Assembly: GCF_004369205.1 (NCBI RefSeq)
Contig: NZ_QFGA01000002.1
Location: 930,001-994,000, forward strand
DNA from: Pelotomaculum schinkii
GTDB lineage: Bacteria > Bacillota > Desulfotomaculia > Desulfotomaculales > Pelotomaculaceae
DNA: 64,000 nt
Direction of reading: 5' to 3'
Shown: positions 9,592 through 63,786 of the stretch, in pieces
Layout: every line of letters starts with the position of its first letter
Position numbering within the stretch: position 1 is the first letter of the stretch
Notes under the pieces: generated by a model
The model's database searches: none
Seen by the model: only the letters and a program-made list of their open reading frames with translations
Told to the model about the DNA's origin: nothing
Made by a program: the position numbers and the translations under genes

Positions 9592-9628
9592 GCGGGCAGC
9601 AGCAAGATCGCTAACCGCATGATTTTAG

Positions 9629-15257: not shown

Positions 15258-16175
15258 TTACCTGGGATTTAAAGTTCCAGCACCAGCTATTTCTACTGTT
15301 TTCTCTTCAGATTCCTTATTTTTAAATGCCGAACGCAGCATGCTGACAGCGGTGTAAAGAATTACACACACTACAAGCCATTTTAAAATTTCAAGCGGCA
15401 TCTCTTTAACGATATACGCTGCAATCAAAACACCAACCGTACCGGCAATAGTGATGGTTATAGAGGCCTTGATGTCATAAGCAGCTTCCTTGATAAACTT
15501 GACGCCGGCTGCCGGCATCAAAAACGCGCAGGACGCCATCATAATTGGGAAGGCAACTTTCGGGCTCATGCCTAAAGCGTAAACAAGCGCCATGCAAGGA
15601 GCGTACAGGCCGATACCGATGGTCATCAGCGCGCCTAAAATAAGGTTGGCGACTACGCCGATAATCAGCTTTGTACCTTCAAGAGCGATCGCCTCGCCGC
15701 CAACCGGCATCCACTTCAAAAGACCTGCTATAAACACAAAATCAACAACCAGCAAAGCAATGCCCATACCCATCTGAATTTTTTTCTCAGGTAAATGTGC
15801 TACTATACCGGCGCCAACGACAGCACCGATAACGGAGGCGGCCACCATAGCAATCAAAGTTACGATACCTACTTTAATAACGGTAATAAAGATTAATGCT
15901 TCCACAATTACGCAAATCGTCATGCTGACATTCAAGGTGCCGGGGATGAGACGATCAGGAACCAATTTAAAAAATCTAAATAACGCTGTAGAAGTCGCAA
16001 AACTGCCGATGCCGAGGGTATCAAAAAAATTGCAGATAAAACCTGTTCCGGATAACTTTGCCAGGCTGGCTTCTGAAAATTTGTCTTTGTTCTTGACGGC
16101 ATTTGAGAAAAAAACATATGAAAACCATACGGCTACAAGCCCGAGAGCGCCCTGAACAGCGTTAATTATACTCAT
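15258..16175 (-). CDS. TSUP (TauE/SafE) family permease, last gene of the prd operon
   Basis: 305 residues with about eight membrane segments, organised as two repeats typical of TSUP (sulfite exporter TauE/SafE) permeases, e.g. GTGFICNFFDTLGIGSFATS in the first half. Family members export sulfite, sulfoacetate or other small organic anions. AAGGAGGAATAAAG precedes the ATG. It lies 38 bases behind prdF on the same strand with no terminator between, so it is probably co-transcribed with the proline reductase genes. A role in exporting 5-aminovalerate or another product of proline fermentation is a guess from position only. Confidence 0.85.
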   Translation of the reverse strand: MSIINAVQGALGLVAVWFSYVFFSNAVKNKDKFSEASLAKLSGTGFICNFFDTLGIGSFATSTALFRFFKLVPDRLIPGTLNVSMTICVIVEALIFITVIKVGIVTLIAMVAASVIGAVVGAGIVAHLPEKKIQMGMGIALLVVDFVFIAGLLKWMPVGGEAIALEGTKLIIGVVANLILGALMTIGIGLYAPCMALVYALGMSPKVAFPIMMASCAFLMPAAGVKFIKEAAYDIKASITITIAGTVGVLIAAYIVKEMPLEILKWLVVCVILYTAVSMLRSAFKNKESEEKTVEIAGAGTLNPR

Positions 16176-16213
16176 CTTTATTCCTCCTTGTATAATGGCA
16201 GCTAATGTTTTAA

Positions 16214-17221
16214 TTAACCAACCATAAACCCATATTTCACCGGATCATTGGGGTCAATTACATATTCATTAAACCCGGTAATGTACGCGCTGCCTGTAAT
16301 CTCCGGTATAACTGCTGAAAATTCGCCTACCCTGGTTGCTTCGACCAGTCTGCCTCTGAAAATGGTGCCAATAATGCTCTCATAGACAAACTCCTGGTTA
16401 AGAGATAATTTCCCTTTGGCATAAAGCGTAGCCATCTTAGCGCTGGTGCCGGTACCGCAAGGTGAACGGTCCAACTGGCCGTCACCGAAGACAACGGTGT
16501 TTTTGAAGTTTGCCTCAGGATGGGTTGGCTCATCAAAAATTTCGACCAGATCAATGGTCCTGATATGCTCCAATTCCGGATGCTGTACTTTAATCTGTTC
16601 GTTCGCCGCCTTTTTAATTGCCATCCCAACTTTTATAAGTTGGTTAGTATTGGAGGTTGCAACTTTCAGGGATAAGTCTTTGGCATTCACGATGGCGAAG
16701 AAACTGCCGCCAAAGGCTATATCCAGCATAACCCTACCAATTCCAGGGACATCTAATTTGATATCGGATTTATACAGAAATGCCGGGACATTACGGATTG
16801 TTACCGACTGAACCGTTTTTTCCTTGACATTCGCCCACGCCTCAATCAAACCGGCCGGAGCCTCAAATTTCACGTGGGTTACAGGTTCAACCGCCGTAAC
16901 CATACCGGTCTCTATTGCTACGGTAACAGCTCCAATTGAACCATGCCCGCACATGTTTAGATATCCGCCGCCATCCATAAACACGATGCCAAAATCCGCA
17001 TCCTCTTTAACGGGGCTGGTCATAATCGACCCGAACATATCCCTGTGCCCGCGCGGCTCATGCATCAGCGCGGTACGGACATAGTCAAAATTCTCTTCCA
17101 GATAAGCCTTTTTTGCAGCCATATTCTTACCTGGAATATTAGGAAAGCCACCAACAACAACCCGTGTAGGTTCACCCATGGTATGTGAATCAACGGCCAG
17201 AATTGAACGCGTAAATCTCAT
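16214..17221 (-). CDS. prdF: Proline racemase
   Basis: 335 residues. Converts L-proline to D-proline in the cytoplasm, the substrate form needed by proline reductase. Both catalytic cysteines are visible: Cys91 in NMCGHGSIG and Cys255 in DRSPCGTGTS, which act as the paired acid/base of a cofactor-independent two-base mechanism. The CGHG context and not a Ser/Thr favours a true proline/hydroxyproline racemase over dehydratase relatives, and the position inside the prd operon favours proline. GGAGGGGGTCGTC precedes the ATG; the gene overlaps prdE by 4 bases (ATGA), indicating translational coupling. Confidence 0.95.
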   Translation of the reverse strand: MRFTRSILAVDSHTMGEPTRVVVGGFPNIPGKNMAAKKAYLEENFDYVRTALMHEPRGHRDMFGSIMTSPVKEDADFGIVFMDGGGYLNMCGHGSIGAVTVAIETGMVTAVEPVTHVKFEAPAGLIEAWANVKEKTVQSVTIRNVPAFLYKSDIKLDVPGIGRVMLDIAFGGSFFAIVNAKDLSLKVATSNTNQLIKVGMAIKKAANEQIKVQHPELEHIRTIDLVEIFDEPTHPEANFKNTVVFGDGQLDRSPCGTGTSAKMATLYAKGKLSLNQEFVYESIIGTIFRGRLVEATRVGEFSAVIPEITGSAYITGFNEYVIDPNDPVKYGFMVG

Positions 17222-17691
17222 GACGACCCCCTCCGTTTTAGAGAAATCCGTTTTTTAAGTGTCTTTAATGCTTTTATCACGTCGGCAGCATTGACTGCGT
17301 TCTGTTCAACAATTTCAGTTTCCATCCCCTGACCGGATTTATCCAAATCGATTACATCTTTCATATATTCATTTTCCAGTACCATACCGTTCGCGGTAAA
17401 AGTAAGACCAACTGCCGGAATCCTTCTTTCCCCAAGCTCTTCCATGTGTGCGGCAAAATCGATATGCTGATTGCCAAATCCCTCGGCATAAATCAATACC
17501 CCATCCACACCGAGCGCCTCAGCCAGCATGCCAAGCCGGCCGGCAACATAAAATTTTTGGCTGTTATCCTGGGGGCTTCCTACTACCGCCACACCCACGA
17601 GATCAAACTCAGGATCGTCCCGTATCATTTCCACCAGCGGATCACGGAAATGATGCAGGGTTGTTTCCTTGGTTGATGGACCTACACCCAT
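17218..17691 (-). CDS. prdE: Proline reductase-associated protein PrdE (matches the C-terminal part of PrdA)
   Basis: 157 residues aligning with the part of PrdA that follows its processing cysteine: here MGVGPSTKETTLHHFRDPLV, in PrdA CIGPASKENTRHYFREPLV. The shared VGSPQ..., EALGV and EGFGN.HIDFA.H motifs are easy to see. PrdE begins exactly where PrdA would be cut, with Met in place of Cys. AGGAGTTGAAAGC precedes the ATG; prdD ends 11 bases earlier. PrdD/PrdE pairs occur in clostridial prd operons with undefined biochemical roles; a non-pyruvoyl accessory or scaffold for the reductase is an inference. Confidence 0.9.
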   Translation of the reverse strand: MGVGPSTKETTLHHFRDPLVEMIRDDPEFDLVGVAVVGSPQDNSQKFYVAGRLGMLAEALGVDGVLIYAEGFGNQHIDFAAHMEELGERRIPAVGLTFTANGMVLENEYMKDVIDLDKSGQGMETEIVEQNAVNAADVIKALKTLKKRISLKRRGSS

Positions 17692-17702
17692 GCTTTCAAC
17701 TC

Positions 17703-18569
17703 CTAGGTCATGGAATGAATTGCGCCGTCTTTCACCTCATTTGGCGACAAAACAACCGGCATATTGCCCAAGTCGATAATCGATTTAGCCCCTCGTACTC
17801 CGCCCGGTTCAGCCGGCAGCAGCAATTTTTCATGCATGGCGCCCTGGCCGCCCACTTCTTTTACGATCAGAATACGTGGTTTACCAGGCCTTCTAACGTC
17901 CCGGAAAGTGTCAACCCGCGCAGCCTGCCGTGCTGATAGTTTAGACAACAATCTGCGAATATCTTCGAGAATAAAATCACAAACTTGGTGTGCAGCAAGC
18001 GGACCCCTGCGCTCCATCCCAGTACCCGCTTCAAGAACAACATCAATACGAAGAATGATATCCCGGGCACCTGGTGTGCCCGGCATACCAAACTTTACCT
18101 TTTCAGCCAGTATCCCGTGGGACGACCCGAATTCAGATATCTGTTTGCCCTGTTCGTCCGTACCGGTTAAAACGACTACGACTCCGCTTAAACAGTTGGT
18201 TATTCCTTCACCGAGCGTACCTTTGACCTTGGCCGCAACCGGCAGTATGTCCATCATGGAGTGTGTTGGAACATTTCGCTGGTGTGGCTCAATCAGATCC
18301 ATGGCAACTTTTTTGACCAGCGGACTAACCGACAAAGCTTTTTCGGCCAGCGCCATATCAACGGTCAATGTAGTACCATTAATTTCCGTCCGTTCTCCAA
18401 GGATAATTTTGTTAATGCAAAACTCCCGGATTTCCAACGTTCGAAGCTCCTGCTCCTCCGTAATTGACGGCGCCGCTTGCTTAATAGCCCGAACTTGTGT
18501 GGCTTTCAGAAATTTTTCCGGGGCCTCTATCACGACCCCTTTGGCCTGGGACACGGCCAGTTTAAACAA
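17703..18569 (-). CDS. prdD: Proline reductase-associated protein PrdD (matches the central part of PrdA)
   Basis: 288 residues from a TTG at 18569, chosen because AAAGGGGGG lies 7 bases upstream; an ATG at 18590 would add seven residues but has no binding site. The sequence parallels PrdA between its variable N-terminal domain and the processing site: EFGSSHGILAEKVKFGMPG versus PrdA EFGSCEGYLDEKIRYGRPG, GMERRGP, and the end NEVKDGAIHSMT versus PrdA NEVRDGGIHALTC. It stops right before the cysteine that PrdA converts to a pyruvoyl group, so it cannot make one. Followed after 11 bases by prdE. Function not established. Confidence 0.9.
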   Translation of the reverse strand: MFKLAVSQAKGVVIEAPEKFLKATQVRAIKQAAPSITEEQELRTLEIREFCINKIILGERTEINGTTLTVDMALAEKALSVSPLVKKVAMDLIEPHQRNVPTHSMMDILPVAAKVKGTLGEGITNCLSGVVVVLTGTDEQGKQISEFGSSHGILAEKVKFGMPGTPGARDIILRIDVVLEAGTGMERRGPLAAHQVCDFILEDIRRLLSKLSARQAARVDTFRDVRRPGKPRILIVKEVGGQGAMHEKLLLPAEPGGVRGAKSIIDLGNMPVVLSPNEVKDGAIHSMT

Positions 18570-18653
18570 AAAGTTCACCCCCCTTTCCATTAATATTTGA
18601 AATTATCACTGCTTCAAAGCCTAAGGCTGCGGGCAGCACCTTCGCGTTACAGA

Positions 18654-19379
18654 TTACACTTTTGCCCTGTATTCATAAGGCAGCGGTACGACTTTACCAA
18701 ATGAATCGATTTCTTCCAATGCTTTCAAGGCGTCTTTCAACACGCCCGTTTGCATAGCAATATTGTGGGGTTCGCCGACATTGGCGCCCATCGGCACCAG
18801 CGGAGCGGCAACCCGGGGCGATCCTTGCTGTTTGGCAACCGGAGGGAGTGCAGCAATGATGATGGTTGGAATTCCTGCAGCCTCAATCGCTCTCTGCACA
18901 ATCACGGCAGAGCGGTGGCAGGTGCCTCACCCGGCGGTTAAAATAGCCATGTCGACGCCGTCCTCTTTCAGAATCCTGGTGATGTTCGGACCAGTTTCCT
19001 CTTCAAATTTTTTAACATTCCCGCCACCGCCCATAAAACCGATAAACCTTGGCGCAATTTGACCAATAAATCCTTCCTGGGCGAGTTCACGCAGACGGTC
19101 AATGGGAAACATGGAATTAATGTCTTTATTCACATCGCTGTTATCGTAGCCGCCATGGGTAACCATCAACTGCTCGGCAGCGGTATCGCTGGGTATTTCC
19201 CGAAAGCTAAAGTCGCCGGCCAGGTTGAAGGGTGTTTGTGTCTTTAAATGCACGCCGCCGGCAGTCAAAAATGCAATCACACTGTCCTTAACCGGTTTGG
19301 TAACCGGGGTAAATACCGCAGGCGGTGTAATCGGAACATAAATCTCTGATTGCAGGCCCTCTACAACCGTGAGTTTCAT
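18654..19379 (-). CDS. prdB: D-proline reductase selenoprotein subunit PrdB (in-frame UGA)
   Basis: 241 residues when the UGA at 18929-18927 is read as selenocysteine (residue 151); plain ORF calling breaks the gene here. Before it the frame reads KEDGVDMAILTAG, after it GTCHRSAVIVQRAIEAAG, giving the U-G-T-C redox motif of glycine/proline reductase B subunits. Together with pyruvoyl-PrdA it cleaves the C-alpha-N bond of D-proline, producing 5-aminovalerate in Stickland fermentation. AAGGAGGTAATTTT precedes ATG 19379. A hairpin just downstream of the UGA (see separate entry) fits a bacterial SECIS. No other stop interrupts the frame, and the C-terminal half matches the family, so this is recoding and not decay. 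Confidence 0.95.
18886..18929 (-). promoter_or_regulatory. UGA selenocysteine codon with downstream SECIS-like hairpin
   Basis: UGA at 18929-18927. Fourteen bases later a stem CTCTGC (18912-18907) / GCAGAG (18897-18892) closes a 9-base loop CGTGATTGT, extendable by an outer CG/CG pair after a bulge. The distance from UGA to loop (20 bases) is in the range used by bacterial SECIS elements bound by SelB. Confidence 0.75.
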
Positions 19380-19401
19380 AAAATTACCTCCTTCAATCGG
19401 G

Positions 19402-19605
19402 TTATTTATCACTGGGGGACACAACTTGAATATAGCTGAAATACAATTCAACTTCGTCGTCAACAGCCAGAGGCTTATCGGTAAAAACCATTCTAAGGGG
19501 AACACTCAAAATTCCAAGCCGGCCGGAAAAGGCAATCTTGACGCCGACATCTGTTACCTCAAGAATTTTCCCCCTTATCAACCGGGGTGTCATATCAATA
19601 TTCAT
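19402..19605 (-). CDS. Small conserved-looking protein between prdA and prdB
   Basis: 67 residues, beta-rich (RGKILEVTDVGVKIAFSGRLG), with the look of a small barrel: alternating hydrophobic residues, two glycines per turn. It sits 11 bases after prdA and 22 bases before prdB, so it is surely in the same transcript. Its binding site is weak (AGGTTG). Small genes are known at this place in other proline reductase operons; I recall them only as uncharacterised. A chaperone- or assembly-type role for PrdA/PrdB is speculation from position. Confidence 0.75.
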   Translation of the reverse strand: MNIDMTPRLIRGKILEVTDVGVKIAFSGRLGILSVPLRMVFTDKPLAVDDEVELYFSYIQVVSPSDK

Positions 19606-19616
19606 GGCTGAACAAC

Positions 19617-21410
19617 CTACCCGATCTGGTCATCAAGCACTTTTTGGTTGTGTTGAATGACCGATTGATCCCACTTGCGGCCGGGCGCTTTGAGTTCCAC
19701 GCCGGCCATCTTGTTTTTCAGCATAGTCAAAGCCCGTCTGGCATCCCATTCGCACAGTGTGTTATCGCCTAAAATCTCAGATTCAAAGCCATTGGCATCC
19801 TTGTTCAGTTCGATCATCGCGTCCATGTACTTGTTGCCCACTACCAATGCGCCCTGGTATGCGGAGTAAGTCACCCCGACAACAGGCACGCCGCGTTTAC
19901 CAATTTGCTCGATGTGGCTGGCAAAATCGATGTGGTTGTTGCCGAAACCTTCGGTAGTGACAATAGCGCCTTCCACGCCGAGAGCTTCTACCATTGCCCC
20001 GACGCGGCCCGAAACATAGTTTTTCTCATTATTGATTTGCGGGCTTCCGACGAACACCACACCCACCAGGTCAACCTCCTCATCGCTTGCCATCAGGTTC
20101 ACCAACGGCTCCCGGAAATAGTGGCGGGTGTTTTCTTTGGAAGCAGGCCCGATGCAGGTCAACGCATGGATACCGCCGTCACGCACTTCGTTCGCTGAAA
20201 GGACAACCGGCACATTGCCCAGGTCAACGTTAGGACGGCCGCCGAATACGCCGGCAGGCTCATTGGGCAGGATGACGTTGTCGTGCATTGCCCCCTGACC
20301 CATGATTTCTTTCACCAGGACTACGCGAGGCCGTCCAATACGGCTGATATCCTGATACTCCACTTCTGAAACTGCCGCCTCAGCAGGCGCTTTTTTCAGA
20401 ACCTCGCGGATTTCCTGGATAATAACGTCGCACACTGTATGGGAAGCGTAGGGTCCGCGGCGCTCCATACCCTTACCTGCTTCGATGGTAGTCATGATGC
20501 GAAGCAGAATATCGTTTTCATCCGGGCAGCCGGGACGTCCGTAACGGATTTTTTCATCAAGATATCCTTCGCAAGAGCCGAATTCATGTACTTGCAGGCC
20601 GCTTTCGTCCATACCGGTCAGCATTACGACCATACCCCTAAGGACGTTGGTTACCCCTTCGCCCAGCCGGCCTTCAACTTTTGCAGCCACAGGAATAACG
20701 TCCATAATGGTGTTGGTGTAAACATGTTTGTTGTCCGGCGTAACGATGTCCATTTCAATTTTCTTGACCAGCGGGTCGGCTTTCAGAGCTTCTTCACACA
20801 GCGCTTTGCGAATGGTCAGCACACCGTTTTCAAAACTTGTTTGCTCGCCCAGTGCTACCTTTGTCACTGCGTATGCGCGCCTTTTCAGGGTGCGGCGGAT
20901 TTTATCCTCAGCCGCTATCGCCGGCGCATCCGGAACCGCTGCCGGCGGAACCACCGGGACAGGCGCTTGGGCCACGGACGGAGCGCCACCATACACGACA
21001 ACCGTCGGAAATTCCAGATTGATGCCTTTTGACTCTTCGATGCGAATACGTACCACACCGCCTGTAACGGCCGGTTGTTCGCCGCCTGCCGGTACAGTAT
21101 CTGGCGGAGCCATCTCCTCTGTCGCGGTTTCCGGTGCGACAACCTCACTTTCCACTGTCTGCATCCCTTCCAACATATCAGGGGTCAGCGGGGTCAGCGC
21201 GTCCACCGTTTTAATTAGTTTTGCGCCTAATGCCTGACCGATTTTAACCACATTGCCAGGTACCGTCAGAAGGCCCGAGTCCTCTAGATCAGGCAATAAA
21301 TCAGGATCTTCCAGATCGGCCGGCGCAATCACCATTCCCACCTTGGCCAGACAGCATACCACCGCCGGATCGTCTTTATGGCGAGCTGCTGTTTCCGGAG
21401 TTATAGACAT
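19617..21410 (-). CDS. prdA: D-proline reductase proprotein PrdA (pyruvoyl precursor)
   Basis: 597 residues. In the characterised enzyme PrdA is cut in front of an internal cysteine, which becomes the pyruvoyl group that binds the amino group of D-proline. Here that residue is Cys419 (TGC at 20156-20154) in the context GIHALTCIGPAS. Residues 1-150 form a variable domain with a Pro/Ala/Val-rich linker (about 125-190); the centre carries EFGSCEGYLDEKIRYGRPGC and GMERRGPYASH; the 179-residue C-terminal part holds VGSPQINNEKNYVSG and EGFGNNHIDFASH. AAGGAGGGTAAGCAAAC precedes the ATG. Follows prdC by 52 bases and works with PrdB and PrdC. Confidence 0.96.
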   Translation of the reverse strand: MSITPETAARHKDDPAVVCCLAKVGMVIAPADLEDPDLLPDLEDSGLLTVPGNVVKIGQALGAKLIKTVDALTPLTPDMLEGMQTVESEVVAPETATEEMAPPDTVPAGGEQPAVTGGVVRIRIEESKGINLEFPTVVVYGGAPSVAQAPVPVVPPAAVPDAPAIAAEDKIRRTLKRRAYAVTKVALGEQTSFENGVLTIRKALCEEALKADPLVKKIEMDIVTPDNKHVYTNTIMDVIPVAAKVEGRLGEGVTNVLRGMVVMLTGMDESGLQVHEFGSCEGYLDEKIRYGRPGCPDENDILLRIMTTIEAGKGMERRGPYASHTVCDVIIQEIREVLKKAPAEAAVSEVEYQDISRIGRPRVVLVKEIMGQGAMHDNVILPNEPAGVFGGRPNVDLGNVPVVLSANEVRDGGIHALTCIGPASKENTRHYFREPLVNLMASDEEVDLVGVVFVGSPQINNEKNYVSGRVGAMVEALGVEGAIVTTEGFGNNHIDFASHIEQIGKRGVPVVGVTYSAYQGALVVGNKYMDAMIELNKDANGFESEILGDNTLCEWDARRALTMLKNKMAGVELKAPGRKWDQSVIQHNQKVLDDQIG

Positions 21411-21462
21411 GTTTGCTTACCCTCCTTATGACATTTATCAACCTTAAATTTGAGATTTAACA

Positions 21463-22755
21463 TTATTCAATCTTCAGCCGGCGCACCAGACGATGTCCCA
21501 CGGCCCGCATGATATGGTCGGTATGGTGATAAACCGGCAACTTCAATTTGGGAGCGACACCCATAACAGTATTGGAACAGTCGCTGCAGTTACTTATAAG
21601 CAGCACTTCAGCGCCATTTTTTTTCAGTTTTAATACCTTCTCAGCCTGACCGGGGCAGTTACCGGGATTTTCGCATTTAATGCTGTTTTTTACATCCACG
21701 ACTTGTTTGCATCTTTCAACACTCACAACTTCGGCGCCCATTTTTTGCGCCAGTTCCCGTAAGCGGACCTCGCCGGCGCCGCATGCGCAAACCAAGAGCC
21801 CCATTTTGCGTTTTTCTTTAGGCAGCGGCAAAGTCACTAAAACGCCACCCGTCGTCTTTTCAACCACACTGTCAATATCAACGCTTTTACCGGTAAAGGG
21901 ACCGCCCATTATGATCTCGCCGTAGTCGCCTTCGATACCTCCGGCTTCTGCAATGAGATCCTTAATTGGCGTGCCGATGGGAACATTCATAAAAATGTTG
22001 GCCTCACGCCCGCTTTTCAACCTGCCGATTACGGTCAGATTCTTGGTCATTACCGGTTTCTTTAATTCAACCGCCTCACAAACAGCCGCGAGGGTTTCCA
22101 CATTACAGACTACGGCATTGGCCGCCGATGGCAGTTGCTCAGGCTTTAACAGCTGTCCCAGCACCTCACGAATAATCGCGCGTTCCTCACCCATCGGATA
22201 GAGGTCAGGCAGAGTCGCGACCTCAATCCGTGCGTCGTCTATTACTGACTTCATACTGGCAATGGCTTTTGTGTTTTTACTTTTTATGGCAATAATTCCC
22301 CTGGCGGCATTAGTGGCCCGCATGGCGTAAATCAGCCCCCTATAGACTACCGCCGGGTTTTCTTGTATTTGTTTGATGTTGTGTGCCAACAACGGCTCGC
22401 ACTCAGCGCCGTTGGCGATAACCACACCCCCTTTAATGTCAATATCCATTTTGACGTGGGTTGGGAAACCGGCGCCGCCCATTCCGACAATCCCTGCCGC
22501 TTTAATCATCTCCACAATGCTGTCACTTGCGGGTATTGGCTGGAAGGTATCCGGTTGAACCTCATCAGCCTCAACCACGATTTCTTTTTCATTCACATCA
22601 ATAACCGTACCGGATACACTGGCGTGAATATTAGCTCCCAATCGTACCGGTTCGGCGATAAGTGCCCCTCTTTCCACTCTGTCACCAATTTTGACCAACG
22701 GACTGTCCGGCGCGCCCAAGTGTTGCTGAAGCAAAATTTTATAAAGCTTTTTCAT
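21463..22755 (-). CDS. prdC: Proline reductase-associated electron transfer protein PrdC (RnfC-like)
   Basis: 430 residues, RnfC/NqrA-related. The N-terminal half has a barrel-sandwich domain (KIGDRVERGALIAEP) and the nucleotide-binding-like GIVGMGGAGFPTHVKMD. The C-terminal part carries cysteines LLVCACGAGEVR, ERCKQ, KCENPGNCPGQ and SNCSDCSN. It is thought to pass electrons from NADH or the Rnf system to proline reductase. Some relatives carry selenocysteine; here the candidate positions read as cysteine, with no in-frame UGA. First gene of the reductase operon, 40 bases from a textbook sigma-54 promoter, with GGGGGTGAAGGC before the ATG. Confidence 0.93.
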   Translation of the reverse strand: MKKLYKILLQQHLGAPDSPLVKIGDRVERGALIAEPVRLGANIHASVSGTVIDVNEKEIVVEADEVQPDTFQPIPASDSIVEMIKAAGIVGMGGAGFPTHVKMDIDIKGGVVIANGAECEPLLAHNIKQIQENPAVVYRGLIYAMRATNAARGIIAIKSKNTKAIASMKSVIDDARIEVATLPDLYPMGEERAIIREVLGQLLKPEQLPSAANAVVCNVETLAAVCEAVELKKPVMTKNLTVIGRLKSGREANIFMNVPIGTPIKDLIAEAGGIEGDYGEIIMGGPFTGKSVDIDSVVEKTTGGVLVTLPLPKEKRKMGLLVCACGAGEVRLRELAQKMGAEVVSVERCKQVVDVKNSIKCENPGNCPGQAEKVLKLKKNGAEVLLISNCSDCSNTVMGVAPKLKLPVYHHTDHIMRAVGHRLVRRLKIE

Positions 22756-23168: not shown

Positions 23169-24620
23169 TCAATATGAATTTGCATCATAGACAATGTTTA
23201 GTTTCTGCAATTTATAATAAAGAGTGCTGCGCGGTATTCTGAGCATTTTGGCGGCTTTGGCCTTATTGTTTCCGGTAAGCGTCAGAACATTGATAATTGT
23301 CCGCCGTTCAGCTTCAATGATGGCTTCTTCCAGCCGTATCAAGGTTTCAAAATTAGCCGTGATTTTATTATCACCTTGCTTTTGATTAGAATTCTTAATC
23401 ACTAATGGCAAATACTGCGCCGTAATCATATTGTCATCTGCCAAAACCACCAACCGTTCCACCACGTTTTTAAGTTCCCGGACATTTCCCGGCCAATGAT
23501 AATGCAGCAGCATAGCCATGACTTCAGGAGCAATTTTGTCAATCAATTTGTGATTGACCACAGAATGTTTTTTTAAGTAATAATCAATCAAAATAGGTAT
23601 ATCTTCAGGCCGCTCTCTGAGAGCAGGCAGCTTTAGCGAAAATACATTTAAACGATAAAATAAATCCTGGCGGAAAGTACCGTTTTTTAACATTGTTGCC
23701 ATCTCACGATTGGTTGCCGCAATAACTCGAATATCCACTTTAATAGGCTTGACTCCGCCCACCCGGTAAAATTCATGGCTTTCCAAAACTCTGAGCAGTT
23801 TGGACTGCATCTCCAGCGGTAATTCGCCAATCTCATCCAGGAAAACAGTCCCGCCGTCGGCAATTTCAAACTTGCCGGGCTTTCCCTTCTTTTGCGCGCC
23901 GGTAAACGCGCCAGACTCATAGCCGAATAGTTCGCTTTCGATCAGGCTTGATGGAATTGCACTACAGTCGACTACCACAAAAGGTTGGTCGCGGCGCATG
24001 CTTTCTTCATGAATGGCGTAAGCAAACAGATCTTTGCCGGTACCGCTTTCCCCGACAATCATAACCGACACGTCACTCTCAGCCACTTTTTTTGCAATCA
24101 TAATCAGGTCATACATCTGCTTGCTTTTATATACAATCCTCTCAAAACCGCAATTGCCATGAATTTGTTTTATGACCTCTTCGGCACGCTCCAAATATTT
24201 TATCCGGTTTTTGGCTTCCTGCAGTTCAAAACTCATTCGTTGGATTTCCGTAACATCATGGTCAATAGAAACTACCCCGATGACATGATCGCCATCACGA
24301 ATCGGGATACAACTTATTATAACCACATTGCCCTCCCGAGGCCGGTGTTCAACATATTCAACGGGATTGCCATTACGCAAAACGTCCAGACACAAGGCGT
24401 TGGGGAAAAATTGTGCAATATCGGCGCCGACAATCTCCATACGGTCAACGCCGTAAAGCTTCTCTGAGCGGTTATTCCAATAAGTAACGACGCCATGTTC
24501 GTCTATTACGCAGATAGCCTCGTTAACATTTTCCAGGATTTTCTCAAAAGATATCCCCATCCGTATCTGAATCAAGTTTTCTGCAGCAATTTTTTTAGTG
24601 GCCTCATCCGCTTTCATCAT
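23169..24620 (-). CDS. prdR: Sigma-54-dependent transcriptional activator PrdR, copy 1
   Basis: 483 residues. PAS sensor domain about residues 25-130, AAA+ domain with Walker A GESGTGKD (190-197), the sigma-54 contact loop GAFTGA (237-242), Walker B GGTVFLDE, and a Fis-type HTH at the end ([20 protein letters not shown]). PrdR activates the proline reductase genes in response to proline; the PAS domain is the likely sensor. Nearly identical to copy 2 at 28613-30082: eleven substitutions fall in residues 39-123, none in the rest of the AAA+ domain, two before the HTH. Near the end a two-base deletion relative to copy 2 changes the tail to YDANSY. The start overlaps the stop of a small upstream ORF. 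Confidence 0.93.
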
Positions 24621-28612: not shown

Positions 28613-30082
28613 TTAAGTAGTTAAATCATCAATATGAATTTGCCCATCATAGGCAATGTTTAGTTTCTGCAATTTATAATAAAGAGTGCTGCGCGGTATT
28701 CTGAGCATTTTGGCGGCTTTGGCCTTATTGTTTCCGGTAAGCGTCAGAACATTGATAATTGTCCGCCGTTCAGCTTCAATGACGGCTTCTTCCAGCCGTG
28801 TCAAGGTTTCAAAATTAGCCGTGATTTTATTATCACCTTGCTTTTGATTAGAATTCTTAATCACTAATGGCAAATACTGCGCCGTAATCATATTGTCATC
28901 TGCCAAAACCACCAACCGTTCCACCACGTTTTTAAGTTCCCGGACATTTCCCGGCCAATGATAATGCAGCAGCATAGCCATGACTTCAGGAGCAATTTTG
29001 TCAATCAATTTGTGATTGACCACAGAATGTTTTTTTAAGTAATAATCAATCAAAATAGGTATATCTTCAGGCCGCTCTCTGAGAGCAGGCAGCTTTAGCG
29101 AAAATACATTTAAACGATAAAATAAATCCTGGCGGAAAGTACCGTTTTTTAACATTGTTGCCATCTCACGATTGGTTGCCGCAATAACTCGAATATCCAC
29201 TTTAATAGGCTTGACTCCGCCCACCCGGTAAAATTCATGGCTTTCCAAAACTCTGAGCAGTTTGGACTGCATCTCCAGCGGTAATTCGCCAATCTCATCC
29301 AGGAAAACAGTCCCGCCGTCGGCAATTTCAAACTTGCCGGGCTTTCCCTTCTTTTGCGCGCCGGTAAACGCGCCAGACTCATAGCCGAATAGTTCGCTTT
29401 CGATCAGGCTTGATGGAATTGCACTACAGTCGACTACCACAAAAGGTTGGTCGCGGCGCATGCTTTCTTCATGAATGGCGTAAGCAAACAGATCTTTGCC
29501 GGTACCGCTTTCCCCGACAATCATAACCGACACGTCACTCTCAGCCACTTTTTTTGCAATCATAATCAGGTCATACATCTGCTTGCTTTTATATACAATC
29601 CTCTCAAAACCGCAATTGCCATGAATTTGTTTTATGACCTCTTCGGCACGCTCCAAATATTTTATCCGGTTTTTGGCTTCCTGCAGTTCAAAACTCATTC
29701 GTTGGATTTCCGTAATATCCTGGTCAATAGAAACTGCCCCGATGACATGGTCGCCATCGCAAATCGGGATAGAACTTATTATAACCATATTTCCTTCCCG
29801 GGGCCTGTGTTCGACATATTCAACGGGATCGCCATTACGCAAAACTTCCAGACACAAGGCGTTGGGGAAAAATTGTGCAACATCGGTGCCGACAATCTCC
29901 ATACGGTCAACGCCGTAAAGCTTCTCTGAGCGGTTATTCCAATAAGTAACGACGCCATGTTCGTCTACTACGCAGATAGCCTCGTTAACATTTTCCAGGA
30001 TTTTCTCAAAAGATATCCCCATCCGTATCTGAATCAAGTTTTCTGCAGCAATTTTTTTAGTGGCCTCATCCGCTTTCATCAT
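28613..30082 (-). CDS. prdR: Sigma-54-dependent transcriptional activator PrdR, copy 2
   Basis: 489 residues with the same PAS, AAA+ ([14 protein letters not shown]) and Fis-type HTH layout as copy 1. The catalytic core is identical in amino acids to copy 1; differences sit in the PAS domain (e.g. A66T, D79E, N85D, C104S, R108C, V116A, H121Q relative to copy 1) and in the tail, which here runs on as [12 protein letters not shown]. This tail is the likely ancestral form, since copy 1 shows a two-base loss at this point. It is preceded by a coupled small ORF and, 250 bases upstream, by its own sigma-54 promoter, so it may activate its own operon. Confidence 0.93.
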
Positions 30083-55939: not shown

Positions 55940-56704
55940 TTATCTCTCGTCATTGTAACGTAGAAGTCCTATATTTTGCAGTCCTCTGATAAACTCATCC
56001 GGAATAAAGAACTTTAGTCCATAATTGTCCCGGAAAAACCAATCAATGTAAGTGAAAAGTTCTCCTTTACTAATATTCATTTTTTGACAACACCAGGGGT
56101 CAAAGTAAGCTGTATAGTTTCTAAACTCAGGATATTCATAGTAACGAAACATTTTTAGCCAATTTTGAGCTGCAAAAGGCCCTAAAATAGCTACATAGCT
56201 GTTTTCCGCTGCAGCTTCTTCTGCCGCAGCCGGCAACCATGCAGGAGAAAAAGCCAATTGCAACCGGTACTTTTTCCCCGACCATACTAAAAGATACTCT
56301 GCTCCATCTATCGCTTCAGCCACGACTAAGCCGGAAACTTTTTGTTTTAGATAGGCAACCAATTCCTTCAGAAATATACCAGCTGTTTGCTCTTTATCGG
56401 CTAGAGCCAGCTTTAAGTTTTTTTTCAGTTGCCTAATGAGATCAGACACCAGAGGCAACACTTCATTATTAAGAGAAATCCCTTCTTCTGTTCGTTCAAG
56501 AATTACCATTTCTTCAAGGTTTTTTATTTCCTTTTCCGTCGCCTCCTTACCATGCAAGGAAGCTATATCTTTCAAAAGAGGGGCAGGTATCATGCTCGTC
56601 CCGCTTCTCCGGCAGCAAACGACGGCCGATTCAAGAACATTCAGGCAAGGGTAAGGGTTTCGTTTCTTCAGGTAATTTACTAAAGTTATTGCAGAAACCA
56701 TCAT
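55940..56704 (-). CDS. Hypothetical protein in the hydroxylase cluster
   Basis: 254 residues, AGGAGAAAA before ATG ATG. First 110 residues are helical with VVCCRRSGTSMIPAPLLKDI; the rest has alternating strands (GKKYRLQLAFSPAWLPAAAE) and several aromatic residues near the end (YEYPEFRNYTAYFDPWCCQK). No membrane segment or known motif. Its place between the ThDP enzyme and the MFS carrier suggests a cluster-specific job, perhaps regulatory or sensory. No family recognised. Confidence 0.7.
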   Translation of the reverse strand: MMVSAITLVNYLKKRNPYPCLNVLESAVVCCRRSGTSMIPAPLLKDIASLHGKEATEKEIKNLEEMVILERTEEGISLNNEVLPLVSDLIRQLKKNLKLALADKEQTAGIFLKELVAYLKQKVSGLVVAEAIDGAEYLLVWSGKKYRLQLAFSPAWLPAAAEEAAAENSYVAILGPFAAQNWLKMFRYYEYPEFRNYTAYFDPWCCQKMNISKGELFTYIDWFFRDNYGLKFFIPDEFIRGLQNIGLLRYNDER

Positions 56705-56810: not shown

Positions 56811-58625
56811 TTAGCGTATTTTAATCTTGCCAAAAGTAGGCAATGCGGGAGGAATAGGAGGCATTTGCCACGTACTGGTAAGAGGAACTGGAATATCCCG
56901 GTTAATGATCACATCAATGACAGTGGGCTTCTGGCTCTTGATTGCTGCTTCCACTGCAGGAGCAATGTCTCCGGGATTTTCTACGCGCACGCCTTCGCCA
57001 CCCATGGACTTAGCCATTGCTGCGAAATCCGGGTTCCAAAGTTCACCATCGTGATATTTTGTGCCTTCATAGGTTTCGAAGTTGGTGCCAATCTGACGTC
57101 CGCCAAAGTAGAATCTCTGCAAGTCACGAATTGCGCCGATGGCATAGTTGTTCATAATAATCCAGACAGCAGGTAGATTATATTGAACAGCGGTTGCTAC
57201 AGCATGAGGCATCATTAAGAAGCCGCCATCACCACAAACATTAATACATGTTGTTTCAGGTCTGGCTAATTTAGCACCGAGAACACCACAAACGCCAAAT
57301 CCCATAGCAGCAAATCCACCGGCCGTAAAGTGGGTTCCCGGGACTTCAGAACCCCAGAACTCCTCAATCCAAGGCTGGTTGTTTCCTACATCTGAGAACA
57401 TGATGGCATCCTTCGGTGCAACCTTGCGAATATCGTAAATCAACCGTCTTGGATCAATGGGTTTGTCATCACAAGTTTTAAACGGTGTTACAAAATCATC
57501 CCATTGCTTCTTGTATCCATTTAATTCTTTAAACCAAACATCATATTTACCAGGCTCATTAAGTTCCTTAGCTTTTTCAATTAACTGACCAAGAACGGTC
57601 TTGATATCACCTACAACTCCCATATCGACCGGATAGTTTCTGGCGATTTCGGAAGCATCAATATCAATCTGGATCAGTTTGGTAGCCGGGATGTTGTAAG
57701 CAAAACCAGGCTGCCAGGAAGCAGTATGCAAATCGGAGAACCTGCACCCCAGAACCAGAATTACATCGGCATTGCGGGCAGCTTCAACAGCGGGATAATG
57801 CCCCCAGCAACCACAAACGCCTAAATGAAGCGGATGGCTTTCCGCCATAGCGCCCTTACCCATGAGGGAAGTATAGACAGGAATATTCATACATTCTGCA
57901 AATTTTAGCAGTTCATCTCTGGCTTCCGATACGTGGACACCGCCTCCAGCCAAAATCAAAGGTCTTTTTGCTTCCTTTAATTTCTTAAGGATGGCTGTAA
58001 TAACATGAGGTTCTGTACCATGACGCCAGGAAACGGAGTCCGCCCAGTTTTCAGGATCCGGAACTACTGTTTCACCTTCTGTCTGGTAAACATCGTATGG
58101 AACTTCCAGATGAACTGGACCAGGTCTGCCGGTTTGCATCAATTTAAACGCCTTCGGAAGAAATGCTGAAATCTGTTTTACAGTAGTAGCCTGATAACTT
58201 TGTTTCACATAATTTCTTACTACTGAGGGAAAATCTGCCGGGTGTTGACGATAGGGTTCCTGCAGGGCACCAGTGTCAAATTGATCGGTGGTCACTTCTC
58301 CGGTAATCAGCAAAAACGCGGAAGAATCATAATATGCGTTAGCCACGGCACATGTTGAAAGTGCTGGACCAGGTCCAGTTGAAACATAAACGGGAAGCGG
58401 CACTTTTGTAAGACGGTAATAAGCATCAGCCATAAATCCCGCTGCCGTTTCTATACGGGGCCAAACTATTTTGATCTGATCTTGTTTGTCATAAAAAGAA
58501 TCTAAAAGGCCGATCGCCCCATGTCCGGCATATCCAATCATATAAGGAATTTTTTCTTTTAACATATACTCAGCAACGACATCCGCACCTTTGTATTTAC
58601 CTAATTTGTCCGCGGTGTAAATCAT
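56811..58625 (-). CDS. Thiamine diphosphate-dependent enzyme, acetolactate synthase-like
   Basis: 604 residues with the three domains of the ALS/benzoylformate decarboxylase superfamily. The ThDP-activating glutamate is probably in RIETAAGFMADAY (about residue 59); central domain with PLILAGGGVHVSEA; C-terminal ThDP/Mg motif GDGGFLMMPHAVATAVQYNL ... NN. FAD-type central-domain sequences are ambiguous. Candidates are a C-C lyase or hydrolase of 2-oxo acids or cyclic diones (cyclohexane-1,2-dione hydrolase is a member), a carboligase, or a sulfoacetaldehyde acetyltransferase-like enzyme. AAAGGAGGATGTCAT precedes the ATG. Transcribed after the hydroxylase genes, 265 bases downstream. Confidence 0.85.
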   Translation of the reverse strand: MIYTADKLGKYKGADVVAEYMLKEKIPYMIGYAGHGAIGLLDSFYDKQDQIKIVWPRIETAAGFMADAYYRLTKVPLPVYVSTGPGPALSTCAVANAYYDSSAFLLITGEVTTDQFDTGALQEPYRQHPADFPSVVRNYVKQSYQATTVKQISAFLPKAFKLMQTGRPGPVHLEVPYDVYQTEGETVVPDPENWADSVSWRHGTEPHVITAILKKLKEAKRPLILAGGGVHVSEARDELLKFAECMNIPVYTSLMGKGAMAESHPLHLGVCGCWGHYPAVEAARNADVILVLGCRFSDLHTASWQPGFAYNIPATKLIQIDIDASEIARNYPVDMGVVGDIKTVLGQLIEKAKELNEPGKYDVWFKELNGYKKQWDDFVTPFKTCDDKPIDPRRLIYDIRKVAPKDAIMFSDVGNNQPWIEEFWGSEVPGTHFTAGGFAAMGFGVCGVLGAKLARPETTCINVCGDGGFLMMPHAVATAVQYNLPAVWIIMNNYAIGAIRDLQRFYFGGRQIGTNFETYEGTKYHDGELWNPDFAAMAKSMGGEGVRVENPGDIAPAVEAAIKSQKPTVIDVIINRDIPVPLTSTWQMPPIPPALPTFGKIKIR

Positions 58626-58890: not shown

Positions 58891-59889
58891 TTATTTCCCT
58901 TTTTCCTCTAATAAACGTAAAATCTTTTCCGGAGTAGCCGGAATTGATTCCACCAAAACACCAACTGCATCATAAATCGCGTTAACAATGGCAGCAGGTT
59001 GTGTATTGTTAACCATCTCACCAAGTCCTTTGGCCCCATATGGCCCGTATGGATCATAGCTCTCATGAAACTGTACTTCACTATGTTTGGGCATATCCAT
59101 AAAAGTCGGTATGATATAGTCAGTATAATTGGATGTTTGCATATCAATGCTCTCCGGGTAATTCGGAGTAAGGTCTTCGAACAGGGCCATACCTATACCC
59201 ATGATGTCACCGCCATCAACCTGTCCTTGAGCCGACAGACGATTAATTACCGTCCCAATATCATAGCAGGTATATAAATTTTCTACTTTTACAATACCTG
59301 TCTCATCGTCAACTTCGACATCTGCAACAGTCGCACCCCATCCCACGGTACGGCTTGGAAGCCCCTTGCCTGTTTCCGGATCGTACGGCGCAACCGGGGG
59401 GCGAAAGCCTCCTGCAACAATCAGCGGTACACCACTAGGGTTGGCATCTCCTCCAATGTCTTTCAATGTTACAGCCTGTGAGGGATCGCTTTCTTTAAAC
59501 ACTTTGCCCTTTTCATACTGCACTTCTGAAACATCGCAATGCAGCATACCGGCCCCATAAGACTTTAATAATTCTATGAGTTTTTTTCCCGCATCAATTG
59601 TTGCATTTCCTACTGTGTAGGTTGACCGGCTTCCGGCTGCGCCTATACTATAGGAACAAGTGTCCGTGTTCGTATTATCGTGCGTAAAGTTTTCCAGGCC
59701 AATTCCCAGAGTTTCTGCGGCAATTTGTATCGTCACCATTTTTAGACCTTGACCCAGATCGGAAATAGTATTGGTAATGTCAATACAACCATCCCTTTTA
59801 ACCCGCATGGAAACGGTTTCGGCATCCCCTCCACCATTAAAACCTGTGGGATAGAAAACAGATGCTAACCCTCTTCCTTTTTTAATCAT
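58891..59889 (-). CDS. Molybdenum hydroxylase large subunit, C-terminal half (separate gene)
   Basis: 332 residues matching the second Moco-binding domain of xanthine-dehydrogenase-type large subunits: KKGRGLASVFYPTGFNGGGD at the start, AGSRSTYTVGNA, and GAKGLGEM with the catalytic glutamate near residue 292. The start ATG at 59889 overlaps the preceding gene by eight bases and has GAAGGGGGAGTCCGTA in front, a strong binding site. Together with the 439-residue gene upstream it gives about 770 residues, a normal full subunit. It needs Mo-cofactor and hydroxylates a C-H next to N or a carbonyl. Confidence 0.88.
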   Translation of the reverse strand: MIKKGRGLASVFYPTGFNGGGDAETVSMRVKRDGCIDITNTISDLGQGLKMVTIQIAAETLGIGLENFTHDNTNTDTCSYSIGAAGSRSTYTVGNATIDAGKKLIELLKSYGAGMLHCDVSEVQYEKGKVFKESDPSQAVTLKDIGGDANPSGVPLIVAGGFRPPVAPYDPETGKGLPSRTVGWGATVADVEVDDETGIVKVENLYTCYDIGTVINRLSAQGQVDGGDIMGIGMALFEDLTPNYPESIDMQTSNYTDYIIPTFMDMPKHSEVQFHESYDPYGPYGAKGLGEMVNNTQPAAIVNAIYDAVGVLVESIPATPEKILRLLEEKGK

Positions 59890-61201
59890 TACGGACTCCC
59901 CCTTCCCCAGAGTCTTTAGAGCTCATGGCAAGATATTTTTCAGGAAGTTCTACACCTGCCATTTTCGCCACTTTTTGCAGAACTTCGATGCCTGAAACAG
60001 CTACAAGTGGATTTTGGGCATGCGCCAGGTCCCCTTCCTTAAATGAATTAACAAAGCGAATATCAAAGGGACTGATCCCGACCGTCCTGGCGAGCTTTTC
60101 GGTCTGAAGTTGTTCCGCAAACTGCCCAACATTTACTCCGAACCCCCTCATAGCGCCGCTGGGCATTTTGTTTGTATAAACCAGTGTACCGTCAACCCAT
60201 ACATTCTTGATTTTATTTGGACCCGCTATATAATTCACACTCTTTTCCAAAACATACATCCCCATCTCGGAATACCCACCGCAGTCATGAATAAGTTCTA
60301 CCTGGCGTACGGTAATGACACCATCTTTACGAATTCCATCCTTATACTTGAAGAACCACGGATTACGAACTGAGCTGTGAAGCATTTCATCTTCACGGGT
60401 GAACGCAAATTTCACAGGTCTTCTGGTCTTTAAAGCCAATAAACCCGCGATATGGTCGGTATGAATGCTGAGCATACCGCCGAATCCACCGCCAATGGTA
60501 CCGCCAACAAGCTTCAATTTGCTCAGTGGAATTTGAAATACATTTGCCAAATCCCACTGGGTAAAAAACAGACCCTGAGATTTTGAATGAATAACAAGTC
60601 TGCCTGTGCCGTCAATATATGCAAGTGAACTGCAGGTTTCCAAAGGCGCATGTTCCTGGGATGTCGTCCTATAACTTCCTTCTACAATGAAATCCGCTTC
60701 AGCAAAACCCTCTTCAATATTTCCCTTTCTAATTTTTCTGGTCGGATATTTACCATCAAACAGGTAGCGGTTTCCTTCCGGACGTACTAAAGGCGCTCCC
60801 TCTTTCATAGCTTCACGCGGATCAACTACAGCAGGAAGCTCTTCTATGTCCAGCTTTATTTTGCTCAACGCTTCCAAAGCGGTAGCTTTGTCATCGGCTG
60901 CAACCGCTGCTATATTCTGCCCCTTGAACCTTACCATTTCCTCAGCTAGAACATCCTGATCCGGGTACATGGCAAATTTGTTGTACGGAACATCATCTTT
61001 AGTAATAACTGCATGAACACCTTTTACCTTGAGCGCCTCTGAAATATCAATTGAATGAATCCTGGCCCTCTTGTAAGGAGAACGCAATGTTTTGCATATA
61101 AGCATTCCAGGCATTTTAACATCGCTCGGGTACACTGTTTTTCCGGTTACATGCCCCATAACATCATATTTAGGAATGCTTTTGCCAACATAATTAAGCA
61201 T
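59882..61201 (-). CDS. Molybdenum hydroxylase large subunit, N-terminal half (separate gene)
   Basis: 439 residues: aldehyde oxidase/xanthine dehydrogenase a/b hammerhead domain (DVMGHVTGKTVYPSDVKMPG, LRSPYKRARIHSIDIS), then the first Moco domain (QEHAPLETCSSLAYIDGTGR, GGTIGGGFGGMLSIHTDHI, PSGAMRGFGVNVGQFAEQLQ). It ends DSGEGGVRND exactly where intact subunits continue into GRGLA. GGAAGGAAG precedes the ATG, which overlaps the iron-sulfur gene by eight bases. The product should pair with the protein from 58891-59889 to form one active subunit. Confidence 0.9.
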   Translation of the reverse strand: MLNYVGKSIPKYDVMGHVTGKTVYPSDVKMPGMLICKTLRSPYKRARIHSIDISEALKVKGVHAVITKDDVPYNKFAMYPDQDVLAEEMVRFKGQNIAAVAADDKATALEALSKIKLDIEELPAVVDPREAMKEGAPLVRPEGNRYLFDGKYPTRKIRKGNIEEGFAEADFIVEGSYRTTSQEHAPLETCSSLAYIDGTGRLVIHSKSQGLFFTQWDLANVFQIPLSKLKLVGGTIGGGFGGMLSIHTDHIAGLLALKTRRPVKFAFTREDEMLHSSVRNPWFFKYKDGIRKDGVITVRQVELIHDCGGYSEMGMYVLEKSVNYIAGPNKIKNVWVDGTLVYTNKMPSGAMRGFGVNVGQFAEQLQTEKLARTVGISPFDIRFVNSFKEGDLAHAQNPLVAVSGIEVLQKVAKMAGVELPEKYLAMSSKDSGEGGVRND

Positions 61202-61694
61202 TTATCTCACTTCCTTCCGGGAGGCGGCCGAATTCTCCGCTTACTACAGCCGAAACAGCTTTAACATACTCCTTATATCCACCGCATCTGCAAAGATTTC
61301 CACTTAAGGCATCCTTGATTTCCTCTTCCTTTGGAGTCGGATTATCCAATAGGAACGCAACTGTCGCCATTACCATACCAGGCGTGCAATAACCACATTG
61401 TGGAGCGCCATATTTGATAAATGCCTGCTGAACCGGGTGAAGTTCGGAGCCATTACTGAGACCCTCAACTGTTACAACTTTTTTCCCTTCTGCCGTAAGC
61501 GCCAGAACAGTGCAAGACTTTACCGCTTTTCCATCAAGAATTACCGTACAAGCTCCGCAATCTCCATGGTTACAACCACATTTAGGACTAACCAGATGCA
61601 GTTCGTCTCTTAAAACTTCCAGAAGCGTCGATTCAGGCTTTGCAATCGCTTGCATTTTTGTACCGTTCACATATAAATTTAGAATCTCTGACAT
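61194..61694 (-). CDS. Molybdenum hydroxylase [2Fe-2S] subunit
   Basis: 166 residues, small subunit of the xanthine dehydrogenase/CO dehydrogenase type. Plant-type cluster loop KCGCNHGDCGACTVILDG with a fourth cysteine in KSCTVLAL, and the second cluster motif CGYCTPGMVM ... NLCRCGGYKEYVKA. Passes electrons from the molybdenum site to the FAD subunit. GGGGGAGTAGCCA precedes ATG 61694; three bases behind the FAD gene and overlapping the next gene by eight. Confidence 0.95.
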   Translation of the reverse strand: MSEILNLYVNGTKMQAIAKPESTLLEVLRDELHLVSPKCGCNHGDCGACTVILDGKAVKSCTVLALTAEGKKVVTVEGLSNGSELHPVQQAFIKYGAPQCGYCTPGMVMATVAFLLDNPTPKEEEIKDALSGNLCRCGGYKEYVKAVSAVVSGEFGRLPEGSEINA

Positions 61695-61697: not shown

Positions 61698-62582
61698 CTA
61701 CTCCCCCCTTATTCCTGCTGCCGCTTTGATCGCGCGGGAAACCATTACCGGTGCAGTTTTATTCCGGTACCATGCACTTGCTCTGAGGTCATCGATGGGA
61801 TTGATTTCATTCAGCACTTTTAAGCTGGCAGTTTTAATTACATCTTCCGTAAGCTTTTTCCCGCGCAGAGCAACTTCAACCCGCTCACAACGAATTACGG
61901 TAGGCCCCACAGATCCAACTGCCACGCGCACGGTTTTACATACACTATTCTCCTGCTCCACATAGGCTGCCGCATTAACAACAGAAAGCGTTTCAGCCTG
62001 CCTTCTTCCAAGCTTTTTAAAGGAAGCATGTCCTTTTTTCAAATTGATTTCAATCCTTGTAAGAACTTCATCCGGTTTGGCGACAGTCTTTCCCGGCCCT
62101 GTGAAAAATTCTGAAGCTTTTACTGTTCTCTCTTTTTTTTCCGACTTTAAAATGAAGTTTGCATCCAGTACTATAAAGGTTGGGATGCTATCATTAGCCG
62201 GAGAGGCATTCATAATGTTTCCACCGATCGTTCCAGTATTTCTAATTGTAAGCCCCGCCATTTGACTAATTGTTTCAACCAGAACGGGAAGTTTTTCACA
62301 AATAACAGGATTTTTCATTATATCGTTCAGTTTGCAGCAAGCACCTATAGAGATTATTCCGTCCTTTTCAATAATGGAATCTATGCCAAGGCATCCCAAA
62401 TACATGATTTGCAGGGGCTGTTTTTGTTCGCTTGGGATCATATTCAGTTCAAAATTAAGCCGGGGAACAAAATCCGTTCCCCCTGCCACGAACTTTATTT
62501 CGTCCTTCTCGAAATTGGCTCTGTGCATAATCTCAAAAAGCTCTTCAAACGACTGCGGCGCTTCAAACTTGTATTTTCTCAT
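61698..62582 (-). CDS. Molybdenum hydroxylase FAD-binding subunit
   Basis: 294 residues, medium subunit. FAD motifs VAGGTDFVPRL and IRNTGTIGGNIMNASPANDS; C-terminal CO-dehydrogenase-flavoprotein-like domain with RVAVGSVGPTVIRC. Transfers electrons from the [2Fe-2S] centres to NAD+ or another acceptor. First gene of the operon, GAGGAGGATGATACTTC before the ATG; the LysR-type dyad is about 420 bases upstream, with a small ORF between. Confidence 0.93.
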   Translation of the reverse strand: MRKYKFEAPQSFEELFEIMHRANFEKDEIKFVAGGTDFVPRLNFELNMIPSEQKQPLQIMYLGCLGIDSIIEKDGIISIGACCKLNDIMKNPVICEKLPVLVETISQMAGLTIRNTGTIGGNIMNASPANDSIPTFIVLDANFILKSEKKERTVKASEFFTGPGKTVAKPDEVLTRIEINLKKGHASFKKLGRRQAETLSVVNAAAYVEQENSVCKTVRVAVGSVGPTVIRCERVEVALRGKKLTEDVIKTASLKVLNEINPIDDLRASAWYRNKTAPVMVSRAIKAAAGIRGE

Positions 62583-63013: not shown

Positions 63014-63259
63014 AGATTGCATTCTTAATCCATTTCTACCAATTAAATGGAAACAATAAATGTAAAATCGTAACCATTTAAGGTTGAATCTTTGCTTTTA
63101 CGTATAAAATTTGATCCACCGAATAATAAAGCGGCTATAGACTTATTAAACGTTCATTGCATCCACGGAATACCGCTGTAAATACTTGTCATAGACCAGC
63201 TGAGTAGCTGTTGACAGTAGTTGTCAGATTTGATATAATTTATATACAATTGAATAATG

Positions 63260-63402: not shown

Positions 63403-63534
63403 GTTTGTTAAGTTACTTTCATACAAGGAGGTGTGAAGCAGCTACAGATTAATTAAACAAAAGTAAAAATAAACCAATAAACCATTGACACCGAACAAGT
63501 GTTTCTGTTAGGGTGATGGTAAGAGGTGGTGTCA

Positions 63535-63786
63535 ATGGAAAAGCTGTTAACATCTCACCAGCTAGCAAAGTTATTAAATGTATGGCCTCATACGTTGCAT
63601 TGCTGGGAAAGAGAAGGGAAATTAAAACCACTGCTTACACCTGGCGGCCATAGGCGGTACAAGGAATCACAAATAATGACTTCTAGTTTTTCCGCCAGGA
63701 TATACGGTAAGCGTGGCTGGAGAGTGGCAAAAAAGCTGACCTGGCTTATTGAGCAGGAGGTGACTGCCTGTGAAAACCACGGTTAG
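63535..63786 (+). pseudogene. IS607-type serine recombinase TnpA with catalytic domain deleted
   Basis: 83 codons from ATG 63535 (AAGAGGTGGTGTCA before it). The first 45 codons are the MerR-like DNA-binding part LLTSHQLAKLLNVWPHTLHC ... LTPGGHRRYKESQI, as in IS607 TnpA. Then the frame jumps directly to the family's C-terminal end, SFSARIYGKRGWRVAKKLTW. The 120 or so residues with the catalytic serine are missing, without a frameshift. tnpB begins inside its 3' end. The product could still bind DNA but not recombine it. Confidence 0.8.

Follow-up and report, generated by a model that had tools for sequence, protein, structure and literature searches.

Two open reading frames for the molybdenum cofactor subunit of a predicted xanthine oxidase family hydroxylase in Pelotomaculum schinkii

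Two neighbouring open reading frames (ORFs) of Pelotomaculum schinkii each match one half of the molybdenum cofactor (Moco) binding large subunit of xanthine oxidase family enzymes. They could be the pieces of a single gene interrupted by a frameshift or a sequencing error, or they could be two genes for two subunits. The locus is part of a stretch of 64,000 nucleotides (contig NZ_QFGA01000002.1, positions 930,001 to 994,000), which was analysed as a whole and is called the window below. The initial annotation had described the N- and C-terminal Moco domains as separate ORFs overlapping by eight bases, with a strong Shine-Dalgarno sequence (SD) for the second and a matching overlap between the [2Fe-2S] gene and the first. 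Coordinates, Pfam domains and junction sequences agreed with this description on every point, and the following features were defined.

61698..62582, minus strand: F, FAD subunit, NdhF-like, 294 aa; Pfam FAD_binding_5 and CO_deh_flav_C
61194..61694, minus strand: S, [2Fe-2S] subunit, NdhS-like, 166 aa; Pfam Fer2 and Fer2_2
59882..61201, minus strand: L, N-terminal Moco subunit, NdhL-like, 439 aa; Pfam Ald_Xan_dh_C (hammerhead) and MoCoBD_1
58891..59889, minus strand: M, C-terminal Moco subunit, NdhM-like, 332 aa, with conserved Glu291; Pfam MoCoBD_2
61194..61201, minus strand: overlap of S and L, 8 bases, ATGCTTAA, from the sequence
59882..59889, minus strand: overlap of L and M, 8 bases, ATGATTAA, from the sequence
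59896..59905, minus strand: SD of M within the 3' part of L, GAAGGGGGAG, from the sequence; duplex of -10.8 kcal/mol

Read from 62582 down to 58891 on the minus strand, F, S, L and M specify the subunits of a xanthine oxidase family hydroxylase. Each contains domains of this family above the Pfam gathering score, and F and S are separated by 3 bases. Scores against the NCBIfam equivalogs for xanthine dehydrogenase stayed below the cut-offs, with 174.9 versus 217 for S, 187.9 versus 310 for F, and 88-282 bits for L and M versus 780-916, values set for full-length chains. The term xanthine-dehydrogenase-type, under which the locus had been annotated, is right as a superfamily label, with xanthine as no more than a possible substrate. 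It is highly probable (about 0.92) that F, S, L and M form an operon and specify a molybdenum hydroxylase of this family with four subunits, built like the nicotinate dehydrogenase of Eubacterium barkeri, with L and M forming one Moco site. The flanking genes are of the LysR and MFS families, one without a match, and one for a thiamine diphosphate (ThDP) enzyme. Just upstream of F, a MerR-like helix-turn-helix start and a TnpB-like ORF (63526-63786; L113:1770-3221) look like an insertion element by eye, and a perfect sigma-70 consensus is found on the plus strand at 63211-63239.

The AAGGGGG of the SD of M is located 8 bases from the ATG, and the strength of its duplex with the anti-SD was equalled by only one of 64 control ATGs, the internal ATGs of L and M. 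Three of these controls reached -9.5 kcal/mol and eleven reached -6. The octamer ATGATTAA alone is not rare, with six occurrences in the window and 4.03 expected. What exceeds chance is the combination of start, SD and domain boundary, which recurs in relatives. M would be translated from its own SD, probably coupled to L by the stop/start overlap, and L to S likewise; L and M are predicted to be co-translated.

To determine if the arrangement is kept elsewhere, a check proposed in the initial annotation, 398 genomes of the phylum were searched with M at E<=1e-55, and at most five candidates per genome were scored. Besides the window, 31 matches in 25 genomes were listed. Every one of the 31 lies in a frame of 333-392 aa, a length that could not accommodate a fused subunit. 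A further scan of named genomes revealed two closer relatives, L062 from a Tissierellia metagenome-assembled genome (MAG), with 67% identity in L and 62% in M, and L063 from a Clostridiales MAG, with 60% and 52%. In both, L and M are separate ORFs, with a gap of 14 bases in L062 and an overlap of 4 bases in L063. Separate ORFs were found in 22 out of 22 loci, some with fused paralogues alongside, but these loci were picked by their match to M and are uninformative on how common fused forms are. In alignments, the break point falls in a variable linker; the KKRG-like motif at the beginning of the second Moco domain follows directly.

The junctions between L and M were compared in 48 loci, window included. 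As the start of M, the start codon nearest to that in the window was taken, ATG being preferred. L145, in which the L ORF has no M downstream, was excluded; there the order is reversed and M is located upstream of L. The distance from the stop of L to the start of M ranged from -17 to +54 bases in 47 junctions and was 161 in the last. Overlaps of eight bases were present in 11 junctions, overlaps of four bases in 13, and gaps of at least three bases in 20. An SD duplex of -9.5 kcal/mol or better was detected in all 48. The genes for FAD, FeS, L and M subunits are consecutive in 31 of 46 relative loci; in the remaining 15, a subunit was missing by BLAST in the piece searched, was fused, or was placed elsewhere. 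Two arrangements differ in the FeS part. In L081, an ORF of 580 aa (7124-8866) matches L from residue 169, its first part presumably being FeS, and M is separate (9022-10008), 161 bases downstream. In L152, FeS and L are contained in one ORF (L ORF of 614 aa; FeS match 15-161, L match 194-593), again with M separate.

These data bear on two ways in which a single reading frame could be hidden in the locus. The initial annotation had left room for a frameshift by sequencing or mutation. The gene would then be a fused one of the ordinary kind, misread in sequencing or recently inactivated, and two features of the P. schinkii genome speak for this: the fused form is usual there, since 14 further matches to L are in frames of 773-980 aa without interruption, and a truly broken Moco gene is present as well. 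The nearest relatives, however, are split too, and the position of the SD is the same. In 20 of 48 junctions, moreover, L stops at least three bases ahead of the start of M, in L145 M precedes L, and the SD is kept throughout. With relatives split, gaps between the two genes in some of them and the SD conserved, this explanation is ruled out for practical purposes, and the chance that it holds for the window is minute. Another way would be programmed frameshifting or slippage, yielding some fused L-M protein alongside the separate halves. Upstream of the ATG of M, its frame continues without a stop for 11 codons. The frames of L and M therefore overlap by about 41 bases, and runs of four and five G are found in this overlap. 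The G-rich stretch, however, is the SD of M itself, and the route is closed to those relatives with a stop and a gap before M (20 of the 48 junctions), which makes frameshifting very unlikely. Two genes for two subunits thus remains the preferred reading, and the stable split architecture suggested in the initial annotation was upheld.

Apart from the 14 fused matches, two more matches to L, both fragments, were detected in the genome of P. schinkii, and no intact split large subunit other than L/M of the window was found in it. The broken Moco gene on contig C4 (L114:4653-6301; frames of 398 and 215 aa at C4:304665-305995) lacks its N-terminal part. On the same contig, about 5 kb apart, L002 and L003 have large subunits that are identical over the compared rows, pointing to a recent duplication. 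Of the 113 genomes of the order, the 112 others gave no match to M at E<=1e-55, and at E<=1e-50 none was obtained in the two genomes of the same genus that were examined (94% and 77% complete). Among 60 genomes of the order searched at E<=1e-50, one gave a match (33%, E 1.7e-53), which is also split. This distribution fits loss or lateral transfer, and because of it the locus is unconfirmed by any near relative of the organism.

The solved structure most similar to L and M is that of the nicotinate dehydrogenase from E. barkeri (3HRD), an enzyme reportedly treated in PNAS by Alhapel (2006) and Wagener (2009). The best PDB match of L was 3hrd_A (E 4.1e-62) and that of M was 3hrd_B (E 3.6e-44). 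For S and F, 3hrd_D and 3hrd_C, respectively, were in fourth place, three other PDB sequences scoring higher in each case. The chains correspond in length, with 425 and 330 aa in 3hrd_A and 3hrd_B versus 439 and 332 aa in L and M, and 296 and 160 aa in 3hrd_C and 3hrd_D versus 294 and 166 aa in F and S. An AlphaFold model of M was of only moderate quality (mean pLDDT 73.6, pTM 0.66). Foldseek placed 3hrd_B on top (E 2.8e-24, TM 0.65, rmsd 6.8, 30% identity), with the unsplit 4-hydroxybenzoyl-CoA reductase close behind (E 4.3e-23). Glu291 of M aligns with Glu289 of 3hrd_B, the catalytic residue in the second Moco domain, and every row of the alignment, 49 split and 41 fused, has Glu at this position. 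Gln209 of L aligns with Gln208L, and Gln is found in 46 of the 49 split rows, including the window.

From these similarities, a working model can be proposed. L, with the hammerhead and the first Moco domain, and M, with the second Moco domain and the catalytic Glu, would be made separately and would join into one Moco site that is elsewhere built from a single chain. Enzymes of this family hydroxylate their substrates at the Mo site with oxygen derived from water. Here, the substrate would probably be a small heterocycle or an aldehyde, and electrons would reach the FAD of F by way of the two [2Fe-2S] clusters that S carries.

Searches for L across Bacillota (E<=1e-60) gave matches in 78 of 249 genomes. 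Among the matches listed, the frames formed two classes. Those of one class, with 412-486 aa, could not contain an entire large subunit, whereas the other class has about 720-1000 aa; two frames are intermediate in length (531 and 652 aa), and the 652-aa frame belongs to L152. The description of the split as unusual for the family is therefore not supported in the sense of new, since many of the listed frames are of the short class and the E. barkeri enzyme is split alike. A literature search on gene fission in the context of xanthine dehydrogenase and molybdopterin yielded no paper.

Trees of split and fused subunits revealed an interleaved picture. In a quick tree of 90 rows, the window was contained in a split clade of eight rows (SH-aLRT 100), and 3HRD in a separate split clade of four (99). 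In a more careful tree of 41 rows, the window's clade consisted of seven split rows (100/100), and 3HRD was outside a clade of 16 rows holding the window. At least four changes of state, each of which may have been a fission or a fusion, are needed on the 90-row tree, a quick one with long branches and no fixed root. A single origin of the split, with all split rows in one clade, was rejected by the AU test with p 0.008 for 41 rows and p 0.010 for 77 rows. The split trait had been named as the group before the tests, though a tree had been seen by then. For the 77-row test, 13 of the 90 rows were dropped, six near-identical split rows and seven fused ones, of which three were nested in split clades, three were long branches and one was a duplicate. 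Dropping the three nested rows favours one split clade, but rejection held regardless. These results suggest that genes have been split or fused more than once at a single linker. That the large subunit was split or re-fused several times at this linker in Bacillota, and that the enzyme of the window belongs to a split clade, so far uncharacterised, which acts on a substrate of its own and differs from nicotinate dehydrogenase, we regard as an even bet. The three fused subunits that fall within split clades, and that may have arisen by re-fusion, are located at L127:10091-12367, L140:3491-5863 and L141:10564-12864.

The likeness to 3HRD raises the possibility that the locus specifies a true nicotinate dehydrogenase. 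Both Moco halves have their best PDB match there, and Tyr13M, modelled to bind the ring N of nicotinate (PMC5746545), corresponds to Tyr13 in the window. Tyr13 is not diagnostic, however, being present in 40 of 49 split and also in 13 of 41 fused rows. Because the split clades separate on the trees, the window was not filed as a nicotinate dehydrogenase. Its annotated flanks, with LysR, MFS, unmatched gene and ThDP enzyme, are presumably unlike the genes for nicotinate fermentation, and altogether this assignment is quite improbable. A different source of substrate could be the ThDP enzyme (56811-58625), if it produced an aldehyde that the hydroxylase oxidised in one pathway. Its gene is the next one on the same strand, and 2-oxo acids are the substrates of ThDP enzymes related to it. 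The two genes are, however, 265 bases apart, and a ThDP homologue was found in none of the 46 relative loci (best match, E<=1e-10; pieces of about 5-19 kb). In L160 (genome G191), a ThDP gene with 87% identity is paired with the 254-aa gene, and the contig of 13 kb that carries them has no Mo genes. For these reasons the link was set aside as improbable, and the ThDP enzyme probably belongs to another unit. The 254-aa protein itself (55940-56704) matched nothing in Pfam or NCBIfam at E<=0.001; a homologue (57%) adjoins the ThDP enzyme in L160 too, giving the same pair in both genomes.

The surroundings of relatives were inspected for hints at a substrate of the four-subunit hydroxylase. Near L062 (20-11108), genes for an IlvD-type dehydratase, a 3-hydroxyacyl-CoA dehydrogenase, a UlaG-like lactonase (with a score short of the NCBIfam cut-off), XdhC, a MobA-like protein and a beta-keto acid cleavage enzyme were detected, possibly a catabolic pathway; an IlvD-type dehydratase is also found near L063. 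The genome of P. schinkii, however, contains only a 47% match to the dehydratase, on another contig, and no good match to the lactonase of L062 (25%, E 2.4e-4), and thus the neighbours of relatives give no substrate. TIGR03309 (YqeB), proposed for the maturation of selenium-dependent molybdenum hydroxylases (SDMH; PMC2276186), scored above cut-off three times in the P. schinkii genome, and XdhC_C was detected three times. Together with a probable selenocysteine gene in the window, these hits make a putative Se-Mo site possible.

Elsewhere in the window, two other regions attracted attention. A cluster of the D-proline reductase (prd) type (15258-22755) contains RnfC-like, PrdA-like (597 aa) and PrdB-like genes, a proline racemase, a TauE-like permease, and a pair of ORFs resembling two parts of PrdA (17703-18590 and 17218-17691), separated by an 11-base gap. 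The pair is also reminiscent of PrdD and PrdE. The PrdB-like frame continues through a TGA at 18927-18929, probably specifying selenocysteine. Two sigma-54 activators (23169-24620 and 28613-30082) have near-identical Pfam profiles (PAS, sigma-54 AAA, Fis-type HTH); between them, a class II tRNA synthetase with an editing domain and a sodium:solute symporter are encoded.

For annotation, the L and M ORFs should be treated as the large subunit of one enzyme, neither as a frameshift nor as two xanthine dehydrogenases. The locus also points to a hydroxylase clade without an assigned substrate, and the interleaved split and fused forms are a ready set for asking why the Moco site uses one chain or two.

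Compared with xanthine, glyceraldehyde and CO dehydrogenases, the window locus has the same domains, FeS and FAD subunits and catalytic Glu, but two Moco chains instead of a single one, which in PDB entries has about 700-810 aa or is longer with other domains. L062, L063, L064, L065 and other split hydroxylases of Bacillota share the break point, the SD and a short overlap or gap with the window, L062 differing in its neighbours (UlaG-like lactonase, dehydratase and others). For the nicotinate dehydrogenase of E. barkeri, subunits F, S, L and M, the genes ndhF, ndhS, ndhL and ndhM (PMC10331938) and a split Moco part (PMC10331938; PMC5746545) are described in print. By gene content, the order not being compared, the same four subunits are present at the window locus, with the L/M break at the same linker, similar chain lengths, and Glu289M, Gln208L and Tyr13M kept; the differences are about 30% identity in M and a place in another split clade. 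The window locus is thus a further split hydroxylase of the nicotinate dehydrogenase type, real and stable. Since 3HRD, the best solved match of L and M, has been described in print as F, S, L and M, its architecture is of a kind already known, found in many related bacteria and largely ordinary.
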